Shown piece after piece: positions 2,236-10,738 of a stretch of DNA of 34,592 nt. Positions within the stretch are counted from its first letter, which is position 1. Each line of letters starts with the position of its first letter. The notes beneath the pieces were generated by a model that was given only the letters and a program-made list of their open reading frames with translations, was not told the DNA's origin and did no database searches. The DNA is from a virus: the IMG/VR virus record IMGVR_UViG_3300011253_000717, positions 1 to 34,592 of that record; one strand, 5' to 3'. A program made the position numbers and the translations under genes.

Positions 2236-4215
2236 TTATGTCACAATTCCTGTCAATAACCGTGATTTTAAGACCTCAGAAGTTGGCTCCCATCCAGATT
2301 GCAATTCGTTCTTTTGTATCAAATCGCTATCTTGCAAAAGGTTTAAAACGCCCCTTTTGAGCTTATTGGTGGCGTAACTTTTTGCTGTTGATTCGGCTTT
2401 ACCGTCCTGTAAAAACCAAGTTTCTGCCGCTGAATATTTCACAATCGGCATACCTGAGACAAGAATCTGGCCACCTAGTGCAAACATATTCTGGAAAGCT
2501 CGCTCGGCATATTTTAGCTTGTCGTCAGCTTTACTGACTTTAACTGGTGCTGCGCCAGCCACTAAAATGGCGCTGGAGACTGGCGCGCCATCCTCATCAA
2601 ACCAACCCTGGATGTCTATGCTCTGCAATTCGACATAGACCGGGTCAACCATTTCAGAGTCTTTTGACTTGCGCTGCACGATCTCGATAGGACCGTTGTC
2701 CTTACTGGGCACCACCGACACTTCTATATCGAGCGCGCCACGCCATGCAGACGACCCTCTAGCCCTGTGCTGGGCCTCGTCACTCACGCCAGTATGGTGG
2801 ACCAAAATCACGCTGCAATTGTAGTCCTGCATAAGTTTTGAGCAGGCGTCGAGCATTGTTTTTGCGTCTTGCGCGCTGTTCTCATCACCCAACAGAAAGC
2901 GGTGCAGGGTGTCAACGACAATGACTCTAGGCAGACTTTCAAGATCTTCCAGCGAGTCCACCACCTTCTGATAGCCCTCTGGCGTGTTCAAATCGCAGCC
3001 TGATCCGCTTAGCCAAACGTTATCGAGATCCATGCCCGTGTGCTGCCTCCACCCCGCAAGGCGCGAGCGCAGACCGTGGTGGCCCTCACCCGCCAAATAA
3101 ACCACCGTGCCTCCGCGAACCTTGTGCCCAAGCCAATCAGTTGCCCTCGCCGCAATCCGTAAGCACCAATCAAGCACCACGAACGTCTTGCCGCCGCCAC
3201 TTGGGCCGTGGACCATAATCAGCGCATTGTCTTGAACCCAACCCTTCACCATCCACGACAACGGCGCTGGTTGAGCGCTAAAGTCAGTTCCTCTCACTAA
3301 CCACTTGCCTGTGTCCGGCATCAGAAGCTCCCGCAAATCACCACCAGCCTGTGCAAAATCATTGGCGTCTGTATCTAATTCCGGCGGGACTACAACCGTA
3401 GCACCGTACTTTTTCGCCGCCTCCTCGGCATACTTTTGCCCAGTGCCGCTCTCGTCGTTGTCGGCAATAATGACAATTTTGCCCTTGTGGTTAGACCTCG
3501 CAAACTGCACAGTGCTAGGAATGTTGGCTGCGTTAAAAGCAACGTAGGTGAACGTTTTGGTTGCTTCGTACACGGTAGCTGCCGTGGCAAACCCCTCGCA
3601 GATGTATATTGTGCGCGTAGGCTTCCCGAGCGCCCAAAAACAGCCGCCAGTCTTTGCTCCGGGGTGAAACTTCTTTTCGCCCTCGCCCGTGATGTATTGC
3701 AGGCTGGCTACATCGCCAAACTGGTCGTATATAGGCACAACAATCCTGCCATCGCCGGTCACCTTTGTGCCGTGGGCATCGATTCCTTTTGCCACTAAAT
3801 AGGGGTGATCTCGGCTCGCCTCGATGCACTCCGCCCAAATCTGATCGACCGCAAAGCTTGCTACCTCCTGACGCTTTGCCTTCTCCTCGTCCCGCAGCTT
3901 CCTCGATTCTGTGAGCCTTTGGCTCAGAGCCATGCGGTCAATATCCGTAAGGTCGCGGTCAACTTCCGCTCGCCACGTAACGTCAAGCCCTAGCTTCCAG
4001 TCACCAAAACGCCCGGCGGGTACACCATCGCCAAACGCCACATACCAGCACGAATTTTTAGGCCCAAATCGGTATATTTTGCCGTCCAAATAAAGGTGCT
4101 CTGGTGGGTCAAGATCCGCCTCAAGCATGGCATTCATAAGCTGAATGTCGGGGGCTTTTTTTCTGGTCGGCGTCGGCCTAAACGGCCCGCCGAATATGTT
4201 TGTTAAGTCAGCCAT
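2236..4215 (-). CDS. Toprim / RepA-like primase-helicase
   Basis: The 659-aa protein combines a Toprim domain with a RecA-like helicase and probably primes and unwinds DNA at the phage origin. Toprim residues are visible as ICEGFA (E207) and ADND (D252, D254). The helicase half has Walker A GPSGGGKT (337-344), Walker B VIVVDT (431-436) and the HHTG motif (473-476) typical of the AAA_25/RepA family. An N-terminal domain precedes the Toprim, but no zinc finger is visible. The C-terminus beyond about 560 may be a winged helix. The ATG overlaps the VRR-NUC stop by 8 nt. The gene closes the replication operon next to the origin-like repeats. No DNA polymerase is encoded, so host polymerase is presumably recruited. 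Confidence 0.85.
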   Translation of the reverse strand: MADLTNIFGGPFRPTPTRKKAPDIQLMNAMLEADLDPPEHLYLDGKIYRFGPKNSCWYVAFGDGVPAGRFGDWKLGLDVTWRAEVDRDLTDIDRMALSQRLTESRKLRDEEKAKRQEVASFAVDQIWAECIEASRDHPYLVAKGIDAHGTKVTGDGRIVVPIYDQFGDVASLQYITGEGEKKFHPGAKTGGCFWALGKPTRTIYICEGFATAATVYEATKTFTYVAFNAANIPSTVQFARSNHKGKIVIIADNDESGTGQKYAEEAAKKYGATVVVPPELDTDANDFAQAGGDLRELLMPDTGKWLVRGTDFSAQPAPLSWMVKGWVQDNALIMVHGPSGGGKTFVVLDWCLRIAARATDWLGHKVRGGTVVYLAGEGHHGLRSRLAGWRQHTGMDLDNVWLSGSGCDLNTPEGYQKVVDSLEDLESLPRVIVVDTLHRFLLGDENSAQDAKTMLDACSKLMQDYNCSVILVHHTGVSDEAQHRARGSSAWRGALDIEVSVVPSKDNGPIEIVQRKSKDSEMVDPVYVELQSIDIQGWFDEDGAPVSSAILVAGAAPVKVSKADDKLKYAERAFQNMFALGGQILVSGMPIVKYSAAETWFLQDGKAESTAKSYATNKLKRGVLNLLQDSDLIQKNELQSGWEPTSEVLKSRLLTGIVT

Positions 4216-4549
4216 TTAATTGTCCTCTCGTCAAAAAATTTAAAACCTGTTCCTTTGCATCGTCCAACCCTCGGCAGACCAGAACCGCATAGCCTATATC
4301 ACCTAAATATCCAAGCCAATCGCGCTGCTCTGGTGACACCACCCCACCCTTTTCGCGTTTCATCTCTATCCATAAATACAGTTCTGGACAAAACAAGTCA
4401 GGAACGCCTCGGCTCACGCCCTCCACCTTCAGCCTAGCGCCTTGAGCCTTGGACCTGCCGCCGCCGTTGGGTATAGCGAAAATTCGTATGGTTGGGAGAG
4501 TTTGCCGGAACCACTTCACAAACTCCCGTTGCACTTCGTGCTCAGTCAT
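4208..4549 (-). CDS. VRR-NUC domain nuclease
   Basis: This is a compact PD-(D/E)XK nuclease of the VRR-NUC family. The signature elements are the IPNGGGRS loop, GVPDLF (catalytic Asp, residue 51) and IEMKR (Glu62, Lys64), then SPEQ..W and a GY..LVC strand. Such proteins are thought to cut branched or recombination-intermediate DNA and often accompany phage helicases. I chose ATG 4549, which forms an ATGA overlap with the preceding stop and begins right at the conserved TEHEVQ.EFVKWFR helix, giving 113 aa. An upstream ATG at 4636 would add 29 basic residues overlapping the zinc-peptide gene. Confidence 0.85.
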   Translation of the reverse strand: MTEHEVQREFVKWFRQTLPTIRIFAIPNGGGRSKAQGARLKVEGVSRGVPDLFCPELYLWIEMKREKGGVVSPEQRDWLGYLGDIGYAVLVCRGLDDAKEQVLNFLTRGQLNG

Positions 4550-6340: not shown

Positions 6341-7330
6341 TTAACCGTAAATTTTGGCGCCGACAAAATCGGCCTTGATTTGCGCCGTCTCGCTAGCAGC
6401 GCAAGCGGGTGCGTTTGCAATCAGTTCGCTGCTCGTTAGGTTTTCTGGGCCATTTTTTACCGTGTGGCCGTTGACATCAAAAGCCGCGACGGTAGGCGTT
6501 GACTCGCTTGCCACAATTTGCCACGGCACCAGGTCCGGGTGCAACACATGCTTGTCACAGCCCTTTAGCTGAAAATCGAAAGGCACAACATCGTCGAACT
6601 GGTTGCAATGCCACGTAGAGTCGCCCCTAGCTGTGCTGTGCGCACAGGTACGACAGTTGACCTCCTTGGTCAATTTTGTCTTGTGGCAAAATTCATGCGC
6701 TGGACAGAATTTGCACTGATACCAGCTCGGGTCAGTTGATATCGGCTCTGGCATCCTCTCGGCTTGTGCGATCCTGTGACCCTTCGCGACCAGCGCCGCC
6801 GCTTCTTCAGGGTCAAACTCAACTGACTCTATATAGTATTGGTCATCATTTTTGCACACCGCAACATATAAGCCCTTACTGATCTTTAGACCAAGCATGT
6901 AAAGCTGCATCTGCGCCCAGTGCGTCGGCTTTGACTTTTTTACACCGTTTTTTTTAACATCCTTAAAGCTAGCCAAAGCATGCGTCTTGAACTCGGCCAC
7001 ATGTCGATCATCTGGTGAGCCCGGCACCCCACGCTCAATAATCAAATCTGCGCTGCCCTTTACATGCGATCCAAAATCAACCGCAGCCTGATCAGTCCCG
7101 ACCTCGATGCCTGCAAGTATCAAATCTCGGATTATCTGCGGTTCTTCGAGGTGACCCCGACGAAACAAGCGCAGGATTCTGCCGGGAAACTTTTGGATAA
7201 CAGCTAACCTAAAATTTAGCCAAACCCACCTGTCGCATGGATGACCGAGGTTGGAGCAACCCAAGTGCGCCCGTGGGCGCTCCTGAGTCGCTTCGTGAGC
7301 CTCATCAATCAACGTGATTAACGCTTCCAC
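6341..7330 (-). CDS. Cas4/RecB-like PD-(D/E)XK exonuclease with extra zinc module
   Basis: The 329-aa protein has the RecB-type nuclease core: D95 in GSADLI, E113 and K115 in AEFKTH, and a QMQLY helix at 140-144. One or two N-terminal cysteines (C25, C32) and a C-terminal triplet (C206, C209, C215) match the iron-sulphur cluster arrangement of Cas4-like exonucleases. A second four-cysteine module follows (C226, C229, C242, C258), then a low-similarity tail. It probably resects DNA ends for the Sak4-like annealing pathway encoded upstream. The start is GTG, overlapping the SSB-like gene by 13 nt, with no obvious SD. Confidence 0.8.
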   Translation of the reverse strand: MEALITLIDEAHEATQERPRAHLGCSNLGHPCDRWVWLNFRLAVIQKFPGRILRLFRRGHLEEPQIIRDLILAGIEVGTDQAAVDFGSHVKGSADLIIERGVPGSPDDRHVAEFKTHALASFKDVKKNGVKKSKPTHWAQMQLYMLGLKISKGLYVAVCKNDDQYYIESVEFDPEEAAALVAKGHRIAQAERMPEPISTDPSWYQCKFCPAHEFCHKTKLTKEVNCRTCAHSTARGDSTWHCNQFDDVVPFDFQLKGCDKHVLHPDLVPWQIVASESTPTVAAFDVNGHTVKNGPENLTSSELIANAPACAASETAQIKADFVGAKIYG

Positions 7331-8821: not shown

Positions 8822-8988
8822 TGGCTTCTCTCTTTTTTGGTTGTGCCTCGGTTCGTAAATCGATTTGAGGCGGGTTTAAAAATTTAACTCGTGTGCCGTT
8901 CCAAGTAAAGGTTTTTTTTATTATCTCCTTTTTTTAAGTTTGGGTTGCCCTACTTCTTTGCTGTAAAAAAGTAGGGGCCGAAGCCCCG
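8822..8988 (-). other. Intergenic region with terminator and diverged cassette
   Basis: No gene fits this gap. After the terminator it carries the same TTTTTTACAGCAAAGAAGT-type sequence found in the cassettes upstream. A TTTACT...TTAAAT pair spaced 16 bp is only a weak promoter candidate. The 11-mer aatttaactcg also occurs before the metallophosphoesterase start. An isolated AAGGAG at about 8930 has no start codon at the right distance. Confidence 0.4.
8965..8988 (-). terminator. Rho-independent terminator with UUCG loop
   Basis: The minus strand reads GGGGC-TTCG-GCCCC (8974-8987) followed by TACTTTTTT. It begins directly after the stop of the 103-aa gene and ends that early transcript. Confidence 0.85.
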
Positions 8989-9300
8989 CTAAGCTTCCTC
9001 GATATTTGGCGGGTTTGATATAAAAAGCTCTGCTAAATTTTTCACAGCTTCTATAGCGTGTTCCCTTTTCGTGTGGCTGTCGCACCAACCTAATTGGTAG
9101 CCAAAAACTTGACCGCCGACAGTGACCGTTTTGTCTCTCGTTCCGCCCTCTACCACAACGTACATAGAATCAATCGGACGTCTTTTAGAAAATTCTAGGT
9201 CGATGTAACACCGAACCTTGTCACCTCCACGCCACATTCTGGCGGCTGTTATCGTCGCCTCTATAGTTTTGACACCGTTTAAAAATGATACTGACTGCAT
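8989..9300 (-). CDS. Hypothetical early protein, 103 aa
   Basis: The reading frame extends to 9369, but its upstream part overlaps the promoter at 9337-9364. The ATG at 9300, with AGAGGG upstream, is therefore the start. The product looks like a compact alpha/beta protein (VKTIEATITAARMWRGGDK, then RCYIDLEFSKR). No family is recognised. It forms a single-gene unit between its own promoter and terminator, like the other small early genes here. Confidence 0.7.
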   Translation of the reverse strand: MQSVSFLNGVKTIEATITAARMWRGGDKVRCYIDLEFSKRRPIDSMYVVVEGGTRDKTVTVGGQVFGYQLGWCDSHTKREHAIEAVKNLAELFISNPPNIEEA

Positions 9301-9336
9301 TTCTCTAACCCTCTCGTTTCGTTGTTGATGAAGTCT

Positions 9337-9364
9337 ATTATATACACAATAGATATAATGTAAA
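9337..9364 (-). promoter_or_regulatory. Early sigma70-like promoter, copy 3
   Basis: TTTACA (9359-9364), a 16-bp spacer and TATAAT (9337-9342) lie on the minus strand. The repeat unit is present as aacacatttg at 9363-9372 and a degenerate tacacaatag at 9343-9352, again 20 bp apart. It drives the 103-aa gene. Confidence 0.75.
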
Positions 9365-9375
9365 CACATTTGGTT

Positions 9376-9445
9376 AAAATAACCCTACTTTTTTGCAGTA
9401 AAAAAAAAGGGGCATCACTTTATCCTCCGGGCCGCTTACACGGCC
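9376..9445 (-). other. Degenerate cassette with orphan ribosome binding site and stop-codon hairpin
   Basis: The stop codon of the 66-aa gene (9436-9438) lies in the loop of a GGCCG/CGGCC hairpin (9430-9445). It is followed by GGAGGATAAAGTGATG, an SD plus start leading into only a dozen codons of T-rich sequence. Only the right arm (GCCCC) of a terminator remains before the T-run. This looks like the remains of a deleted gene. Confidence 0.5.
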
Positions 9446-9636
9446 TCTCTGACAACTTCAGTTCTGTGGTATTCGCCCAAGGCGTTATTCAAACTTTCGT
9501 CGAGCGTCCCAGCGCCAGCGGCGGAGCACCACGTCACCAAAAACTCTTTCATGGTCTCGTCGGTTTCGAGGTCATCCATGTAGGCGCGGATGACCTTGGG
9601 GTCAACGTCAATCGTGAAGTCTATTCGTACTTTCAT
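9436..9636 (-). CDS. Hypothetical early protein, 66 aa
   Basis: The 66-aa acidic product begins MKVRIDFTIDVDPKVIRAYM, a strand-helix start followed by helical segments; no domain is recognised. The SD is strong (GGAGGAG before the ATG), and its own stop codon sits in a hairpin. It is co-transcribed with the 108-aa gene from promoter copy 2. Confidence 0.65.
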   Translation of the reverse strand: MKVRIDFTIDVDPKVIRAYMDDLETDETMKEFLVTWCSAAGAGTLDESLNNALGEYHRTEVVREAV

Positions 9637-9643
9637 GTTTATC

Positions 9644-9666
9644 TCCTCCGGGCCGCTTACGCGGCC
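9644..9666 (-). promoter_or_regulatory. Hairpin enclosing a stop codon, followed by SD
   Basis: GGCCGC-GTAA-GCGGCC places the stop codon of the 108-aa gene in a tetraloop. It is followed at once by GGAGGAG, the SD of the 66-aa gene. The 16-mer TAAGCGGCCCGGAGGA (9644-9659) recurs exactly at 9423-9438. The arrangement suggests translational coupling: terminating ribosomes open the hairpin. Confidence 0.55.
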
Positions 9667-9983
9667 ACCGTTATTTCAAATGACGCGATGGGAGAATTCC
9701 ATTTGCCACCATTGCCCAACTGCTTTACGCCTGCCTTATTGTTAAAGGCGCAAAACTTGGCATTATCCGCGCCTATGGCGGCGTTCCCATTACAATCAAA
9801 GTCAAAGACGTTTACGAATGCCTTGAGGTTTCCGCCCTTTTTGATAACGATCTCGCTGCCGTCTTTCATCTGAGCAATGACCTTATATCCCTTGCCGGCT
9901 TTGGCAGCAATTACGCTGCTGATGTTAGATACAAATGTAAGCGCCTTAGCTTCGTTGCGTGCGAGGTGTGCTTGATAGTCCAT
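9657..9983 (-). CDS. Hypothetical early protein, 108 aa
   Basis: The 108-aa product has a helical N-terminus (LARNEAKALTFVSNISSVIAA) followed by a beta-rich half (YKVIAQMKDGSEIVIKKGG) with two cysteines. I recognise no family. The ATG follows GAGAGAACG, about 30 nt downstream of the -10 of promoter copy 2. It forms a two-gene unit with the 66-aa gene. Confidence 0.65.
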   Translation of the reverse strand: MDYQAHLARNEAKALTFVSNISSVIAAKAGKGYKVIAQMKDGSEIVIKKGGNLKAFVNVFDFDCNGNAAIGADNAKFCAFNNKAGVKQLGNGGKWNSPIASFEITVAA

Positions 9984-10013
9984 GTCCGTTCTCTCTCTGT
10001 TTGTGTGGGATCT

Positions 10014-10041
10014 ATTATATACACATTTGATTTAATGTCTA
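10014..10041 (-). promoter_or_regulatory. Early sigma70-like promoter, copy 2
   Basis: TAGACA (10036-10041), 16 bp, TATAAT (10014-10019) on the minus strand. The direct repeats are tacacatttg at 10020-10029 and tacacgtttg (one mismatch) at 10040-10049, exactly 20 bp apart. It drives the 108-aa and 66-aa genes. Confidence 0.8.
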
Positions 10042-10076
10042 CACGTTTGGTTAAAATAACCCTACTTTTTTACTGC

Positions 10077-10099
10077 AAAAAAAAAGGGGCCGCAGCCCC
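10077..10099 (-). terminator. Rho-independent terminator
   Basis: GGGGC-TGCG-GCCCC followed by nine T on the minus strand. It lies about 30 nt after the stop of the 93-aa gene and immediately before promoter copy 2. Confidence 0.88.
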
Positions 10100-10130
10100 C
10101 TTAACTTTCATTAACCGATTCCTCTATATG

Positions 10131-10412
10131 TCAAACCTTCCAGCCGGAAGGGGTTTTGTGCTGTCGGGTGATGGGGTTTGCTTGCATCACTTGAGTTAGA
10201 TCCTCAAAAAACATTGAGCGACCGTTGCCGCACGTTGGCGTTTCAGACACTAATGAATAACGATTTTGAGGCATGTCAACGCTTATTCTTAAGTTTGGGC
10301 TTAAACGGTTCCACCAAAAAACTTCGGTCCCACTTTTCCGTTGGCTGACATAAAAATTCGTGTTCCTTCCGCCTAGCACAATGTTTCCGTTTGCATTTAT
10401 TTCGTTTTGCAT
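10131..10412 (-). CDS. Hypothetical early protein, 93 aa
   Basis: The 93-aa basic product contains no motif I recognise. It is probably beta-rich (NIVLGGRNTNFYVS, then TEVFWWNRLSP). A CGGAGA SD lies eight bases before the ATG. Promoter copy 1 is directly upstream and a strong terminator directly downstream, so it is an independent transcription unit. Such isolated phage early genes often act on the host, but nothing here shows what this one does. Confidence 0.65.
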   Translation of the reverse strand: MQNEINANGNIVLGGRNTNFYVSQRKSGTEVFWWNRLSPNLRISVDMPQNRYSLVSETPTCGNGRSMFFEDLTQVMQANPITRQHKTPSGWKV

Positions 10413-10441
10413 GTTAGCGATCTCCGTTGTTGATGGGATCT

Positions 10442-10469
10442 ATTATATACACATTTGATTTAATGTCTA
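10442..10469 (-). promoter_or_regulatory. Early sigma70-like promoter, copy 1, with phased direct repeats
   Basis: TAGACA (10464-10469) and TATAAT (10442-10447) are separated by 16 bp on the minus strand. The 10-mer tacacatttg occurs exactly at 10448-10457 (abutting the -10) and 10468-10477 (overlapping the -35 edge). These are 20 bp apart, about two helical turns. The pattern suggests an operator for a regulator that binds one DNA face. Confidence 0.82.
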
Positions 10470-10490
10470 CACATTTGGTTAAAATAAATT

Positions 10491-10515
10491 AAAAAAAACC
10501 CCGGACGTGCCGGGG
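10491..10515 (-). terminator. Rho-independent terminator
   Basis: CCCCGG-CACGT-CCGGGG followed by eight T on the minus strand, about 20 nt after the DUF3310 gene. It separates the metallophosphoesterase/DUF3310 transcript from promoter copy 1. Confidence 0.9.
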
Positions 10516-10534
10516 CGGTAACCTTGAAAAACGT

Positions 10535-10738
10535 TTAGCCTTCAGACTCAATCAGAAAATCGATGTACTGCCTAGCCTTGAGCAAGTCTTGCACCCCAGC
10601 TTTATCCCGCCATCGAGTGACGTACTTGACGATGTTGCCCTCACAAAACCCCAGCTTGTTTTGCATGATGTAGTCTATCGGCTGGATTGCCATTTTTTGG
10701 TAATGGTCGCCGCCCTCCTGATACTCTGTGCTTTTCAC
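10535..10738 (-). CDS. DUF3310 family protein
   Basis: The 67-aa product matches the DUF3310 pattern of phage nucleotide-metabolism-associated proteins: GGDHY, IQPIDYI..N.L.F.EGN, VKYV.RW..K.G..DL.KA..YI. Members occur widely in phages, sometimes annotated as nucleotide kinase-like, but their reaction is not established. It starts with GTG overlapping the phosphoesterase stop as GTGA and is followed by a strong terminator. Confidence 0.85.
   Translation of the reverse strand: MKSTEYQEGGDHYQKMAIQPIDYIMQNKLGFCEGNIVKYVTRWRDKAGVQDLLKARQYIDFLIESEG

Follow-up and report, generated by a model that had tools for sequence, protein, structure and literature searches.

A putative hypervariable accessory-gene array with repeated terminator–promoter–leader blocks in a small tailed phage

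The interval between the DUF3310 and Sak4 genes

The window, by which we mean the whole stretch of DNA analysed, is a 34.6-kb virus record of 34,592 nt and stems from a small, probably marine tailed phage. It carries four small genes, here called A to D, between the conserved genes of a DUF3310 protein and of a Sak4-like protein, and all genes of this interval are read on the minus strand. The array and the surrounding genes comprise:

11904–10735, minus strand: exonuclease gene, left of the DUF3310 gene
10535–10738, minus strand: DUF3310 gene, conserved left flank (PF11753, 2.2e-13)
10131–10412, minus strand: gene A, 93 aa, in all four arrangements of the array described below (64–97% amino acid identity)
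9657–9983, minus strand: gene B, 108 aa, missing in the related contigs L007, L008, L009 and L089
9436–9636, minus strand: gene C, 66 aa, alone and first in L008 and L009
8989–9300, minus strand: gene D, 103 aa, also in L008 and L009
8147–8821, minus strand: Sak4-like single-stranded DNA annealing protein gene, conserved right flank (phrog_124, 1.5e-54)
6341–7330, minus strand: Cas4-domain exonuclease gene (phrog_1990, 2.2e-91)

As stated in the original prediction, the four genes form three units, namely the single genes A and D and the two-gene unit B–C. The start of gene D given by the open reading frame caller (9369) falls within a promoter; the start that has a ribosome site lies at 9300. 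On one side the array is bordered by the lysis, exonuclease and DUF3310 genes and on the other side by a replication–recombination operon, in which Sak4 is followed by a DUF7173 gene, an SSB-like/DUF669 gene, the Cas4-domain exonuclease and the genes of a helicase and a primase/helicase. Sak4 is a candidate recombinase and the Cas4-domain exonuclease its candidate partner. No integrase was found among the large open reading frames of the window that were searched.

It had also been claimed that none of the four products matches a known family. Indeed A, B, C and D have no match above the cut-offs in Pfam, PHROGs and NCBIfam, and this holds for the known anti-defence and host-takeover families in these collections as well. 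Searches of A, B and D against phage records with tblastn gave nothing convincing (the hit of gene B in Vibrio phages is weak and partial, E 0.03), and relatives of gene A were looked for in bacterial genomes and not found. Gene C has a homologue (37%) in contig L161. A supposed homologue of D in contig L097 was dropped, as the match is to a repetitive protein. The AlphaFold models of A and B have a pLDDT of 46 (4 sequences) and 48 (1 sequence), respectively, and were therefore unusable and left out of the fold search.

The best matches of the terminase, with 57% identity, are found in the Roseobacter phage CRP-823 and its relatives, which are siphovirus-like. In these phages small genes are likewise clustered at the equivalent position between the lysis and replication genes; they are closely packed and lie on the strand opposite to that of the window array. 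In the contigs L161 and L164, whose exonucleases are only 49–51% identical to that of the window (49% for L161), small genes adjoin the exonuclease and DUF3310 genes (L161, 6079–6423; L164, 1091–2041), each with its own repeated leaders, which are unrelated in sequence to the leaders of the window. As small genes occupy the same place in the CRP-823 group and in L161 and L164, the place between DUF3310 and Sak4 seems to be a general location of accessory genes, with repeated control elements that differ in sequence. Elsewhere in the window, an open reading frame of 720 aa (30209–28047) has family matches to major head proteins and weak ones to head maturation proteases, and is thus an apparent protease–capsid fusion.

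Predicted promoters and composite hairpins

The following signals were identified in the interval:

10498–10516, minus strand: terminator-like hairpin with T-run after DUF3310 (−13 kcal/mol, z −2.0)
10440–10478, minus strand: predicted promoter 1 (TAGACA-16-TATAAT), precedes A
10083–10102, minus strand: putative terminator 1, GC hairpin with T-run after A (z −2.2)
10060–10088, minus strand: second hairpin after A; the T-run of terminator 1 serves as its 5′ arm, and its 3′ arm with TTATTTT is the "linker" discussed below
10012–10050, minus strand: predicted promoter 2, precedes B–C
9644–9666, minus strand: B–C joint, stop codon within a GC hairpin, then a ribosome site
9383–9411, minus strand: hairpin of the second type after C, without a preceding GC hairpin
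9335–9373, minus strand: predicted promoter 3 (TTTACA-16-TATAAT), precedes D
8948–8987, minus strand: closing junction and right boundary of the array, with a GC hairpin that overlaps a second hairpin of perfect 12-bp stem

The near-identical promoters that had been noticed before are three sigma-70-type promoters with TAGACA or TTTACA, a spacer of 16 nt and TATAAT, each agreeing with the consensus at 11 of 12 bases, and from their sequence they would drive A, B–C and D. Terminator-like hairpins lie ahead of each of them. Their 34-nt core occurs three times in the window vs 0.00 times expected in shuffles, and the 80-nt blocks at 9334–9413 and 10011–10090 are 89% identical. The stretch GGGTTATTTTAACCAAA agrees in part with an UP-element, as judged by eye.

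The conservation goes past the hexamers into the 16-nt spacer, which holds the tandem element CAAATGTGTnnAnATTA. Moreover, parts of the tandem AATGTGT elements are found again ahead of what may be a regulator operon, so that joint regulation is possible too: a promoter at 1880–1823 on the minus strand (TTTACA-16-TATACT) has AATGTGTATA in common with the cassette promoters and precedes a mini-operon with a weakly Arc/NikA-like open reading frame (1579–1310), which might encode a common regulator. The conserved promoter could accordingly be read as the operator of a phage regulator that keeps the copies alike, the exchange of genes being a by-product. Yet the conservation extends beyond the promoter to the hairpin and the leader, no repressor was identified, and the promoter motif does not recur at a comparable score elsewhere in the window. 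We regard this explanation as rather unlikely; it is compatible with the shuffling of genes at repeated blocks which we propose below and does not exclude it. Apart from the array, a repeated GGGGTATCAACGGGTAACA and a further hairpin lie in the gap after the start of the primase gene (2240–2120, minus strand), possibly a site for replication or control.

The claim that each unit is bounded by a GC hairpin with T-run holds after DUF3310, A and D but not for the B–C unit, which ends with the second hairpin only. Taken singly, these three GC hairpins stand out only moderately from shuffles (z about −2.0, −2.2 and −2.5). The hairpin after DUF3310 marks the constant left boundary of the array; all relatives have it, L089 with two changes in the loop. 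After gene A the GC hairpin is followed by nine T, and this T-run together with the preceding CCC forms the 5′ arm of the second hairpin, whose 3′ arm is AAAAAAGTAGGG, followed by TTATTTT. Since the 3′ arm and the T-tract match the sequence AAAAAAGTAGGGTTATTTT, which had been described as a linker shared by all units, the linker is the second half of this hairpin together with its T-tract; moreover, it is present at the A/B and C/D junctions but absent from the other two of the four junctions. Copies of the 17-mer in L087 and L088 have neither promoter nor cassette and are unrelated chance matches; the linker was thus dismissed as a general phage motif.

At the closing junction the GC hairpin with its T-run (8987–8974, z −2.5) overlaps the second hairpin (8976–8948), which is devoid of the T-tract. 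The second hairpin exists in two forms: the form CCCTACTTTTTTACAGCAAAGAAGTAGGG with its perfect 12-bp stem (z −5.0) is found at the last junction of the window and at the C/A junction of L008, and the other form is a long stem with a U–U mismatch and a z of only −1.5 to −1.8. The changes between both forms are, by eye, one-sided, so covariation gives no support. After C in the window and after gene H in L089 the GC hairpin is absent and the second hairpin alone remains. The overlap would permit the second hairpin to act as an anti-terminator; we do not favour this, as it forms only once the T-run has been transcribed.

The B–C joint is repeated after C (9445–9423, 96% identity). Gene E of the relatives L007 and L089 ends like B and C, with the stop codon in a GC hairpin and a ribosome site thereafter. 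The stop-codon hairpin with the ribosome site is possibly a gene-joining element of its own.

Gene exchange among close relatives

Sak4, the exonuclease, the linker and the promoter, each used to scan viral contigs, led to the same five close contigs, and the comparison comprises six sequences, namely the window, L006, L007, L008, L009 and L089. Their flanking proteins are 94–100% identical and the flanking DNA about 90–100%. Comparison of the interval across relatives had been named beforehand as the test of the predicted architecture, and gene exchange between conserved flanks is in fact seen, with four arrangements: A, B–C and D in the window and L006; C, A and D in L008 and L009; E, A′ and H in L089; and E and A′–F–G in L007. 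Thus gene C is second behind B in the window and stands alone behind the first promoter in L008 and L009, and the counterpart of D is H in L089 and F–G in L007. The array is therefore not an invariant set of the same four genes serving core functions, as contents and orders vary. Given that the relatives have the same and also different little genes in another order, the repeated signals seem to function as joints for the swapping of genes. In L007 the closing hairpin is absent, and hence not every exchange uses the repeated block.

Genes E, F and G have no family match (for G there are weak partial matches in a few phages), and gene H is LPD29-like (PF18847), with 25.6 bits vs the Pfam gathering score of 27 (E 2.1e-5). 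In the unrelated phage contig L093 we observed an 86-nt repeated promoter region (2824–2909 and 4196–4281) whose CRP-type sites are perfect (TGTGAACTGCGTCACA, TGTGACATGGTTCACA); one of the two copies sits before an LPD29-like homologue of H.

Repeats of 60–80 nt with 83–100% identity are where short-read assemblers misjoin, and two of the arrangements, those of L007 and L089, are each known from one metagenome contig, so that the arrangements might be products of misassembly at the repeats. We consider this very improbable. The arrangement of the window recurs in L006 and that of L008 in L009, the two contigs of each pair coming from differently numbered metagenomes. Moreover, E, F, G and H consist of new rather than rearranged sequence, and the internal variants of the leaders match no simple join.

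These leaders have a mosaic history. The two copies of gene E, in L007 and L089, share 96.8% identity, yet the leaders in front of them only 78%. The L007 leader of E instead resembles the leader of A′ in L089 (89% identity), and the latter is 90% like the leader of B in the window and 85% like the leader of A′ in L007. Leaders thus recombine independently of their genes. In L008 the block in front of C and the block in front of A agree without a difference over 67 nt. The flanks point in the same direction: in the 1.9 kb left of the array 48 sites pair the window with L009, and the other pairings have 7 and 2, whereas in the 0.4 kb on the right the window pairs with L089 at 18 sites, with L007 at 2 and with L009 at 0. 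The two flanks favour different trees (48:7:2 vs 0:2:18), and so recombination has taken place within the interval. Between the window and L008, D is 99.7% identical but Sak4 only 90.7%, which places one switch in the last junction; these breakpoints are inferred from few genomes and have limited resolution.

Gene A evolves fast. Between the window and L007 the ratio of non-synonymous to synonymous changes is 24:11 for gene A vs 19:81 for the exonuclease (p 3e-7), and dN/dS is about 0.5–0.6 vs 0.03–0.09 in the neighbouring exonuclease. These values fit either diversifying pressure or weak constraint; they are consistent with a role in host takeover or anti-defence but not specific to it. Four contents and orders, leaders of mosaic make-up, flanks with discordant trees and the fast evolution of a cassette gene together give strong support to the predicted swappable plug-in architecture.

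Lambdoid morons are small genes with their own promoter and terminator between conserved genes, and they bring unlike promoters. The units of the window could be ordinary morons, that is single genes inserted independently, with the repeats playing no part in exchange. Every unit shows the moron layout, with its own predicted promoter and terminator between conserved neighbours, gene E bears an extra terminator-like hairpin of its own, and gene C has its homologue in the distant phage L161. Independent arrivals predict unlike promoters, however, and all eleven promoter–leader blocks are homologous. Unlike morons, the units have one homologous block in common and are rearranged among themselves, and the leaders recombine among the units. 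We therefore give independent insertion little chance.

Proposed mechanism and comparison with known systems

We suggest, with a probability of roughly 0.78, that the interval holds accessory genes in a hypervariable array, whose composite terminator–promoter–leader repeats provide the homology for shuffling. Each unit would be insulated in transcription, with a promoter and a short leader that carries a ribosome site at its head, a composite terminator at its end and one or two small genes in between. The host RNA polymerase would read the strong sigma-70-type promoter of each unit, and the hairpins would insulate neighbouring units; promoter and terminator activity are here deduced from the sequence. 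The repeated block of about 70–110 nt, comprising second hairpin, T-tract, promoter and leader, would double as shared homology, and non-allelic copies could recombine within one genome or between co-infecting relatives. Such exchange would delete, reorder or replace genes and leave the transcription of the neighbours undisturbed. As phage annealing systems work with short homologies, Sak4, the Cas4-type exonuclease and the SSB-like protein of the phage itself are candidates for carrying out the exchange; we infer homologous exchange with these proteins as its agents. The cassette genes may act early against the host or its defence, host takeover or anti-defence being a plausible role of the cargo. 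It is a more doubtful idea that the array is a dedicated, self-maintaining exchange device, in which gene conversion by Sak4, exonuclease and SSB keeps the blocks alike and the units form a pool, at the level of the population, of fast-evolving counter-defence proteins that belong to no known family.

The array supplies natural recombinants with visible breakpoints. In addition, the junction sequence can serve as an address for the systematic collection of fast-changing accessory genes without known family, which are candidates for anti-defence.

Several known systems resemble the array in part. In the descriptions of later papers (PMC4503421), the promoter early stem-loops or PeSLs (Arbiol 2010; Comeau 2014) mediate gene shuffling between closely related T4-type phages. 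As far as these descriptions go, both systems are composites of a stem–loop and an early promoter which occur in several copies among small genes without known function and are tied to gene shuffling between close relatives (PMC4503421). Like PeSLs, the array has a stem–loop and an early-type promoter as a predicted repeated block, a variable region between conserved genes, and recombination at the block between close relatives, as far as breakpoints from few genomes tell. On the contrary, terminase and gene order place the window phage in a lineage of small phages that is not related to T4, a common sequence is not known to us from these descriptions, and the motif scan of viral contigs returned only close relatives. 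The window also differs in having two overlapping hairpins with a common T-run, only three copies and one genome site. The array thus works like a PeSL but is not a PeSL by descent.

In the archaeal virus HGTV-1 a promoter element and an inverted repeat precede many small genes, and shuffling has been suggested (PMC3950731). The window too has a motif of promoter and inverted repeat before small genes, whereas HGTV-1 is a large myovirus with an archaeal TATA-type promoter, and its shuffling was suggested by likeness (PMC3950731). The SAS and ESAS elements of Cluster K mycobacteriophages are repeats before accessory genes of various families, SAS being 13 bp at translation starts (PMC3203893). 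They share with the array the repeat before accessory genes and, in the extended form, an inverted repeat; a terminator–promoter unit is not described for them (PMC3203893). Thus, the principle of shuffling cassettes is known and its instance in a small non-T4 lineage is new: promoter–terminator shuffling, known from T4-type phages and suggested in one archaeal virus, is extended to a small lineage unrelated to T4.
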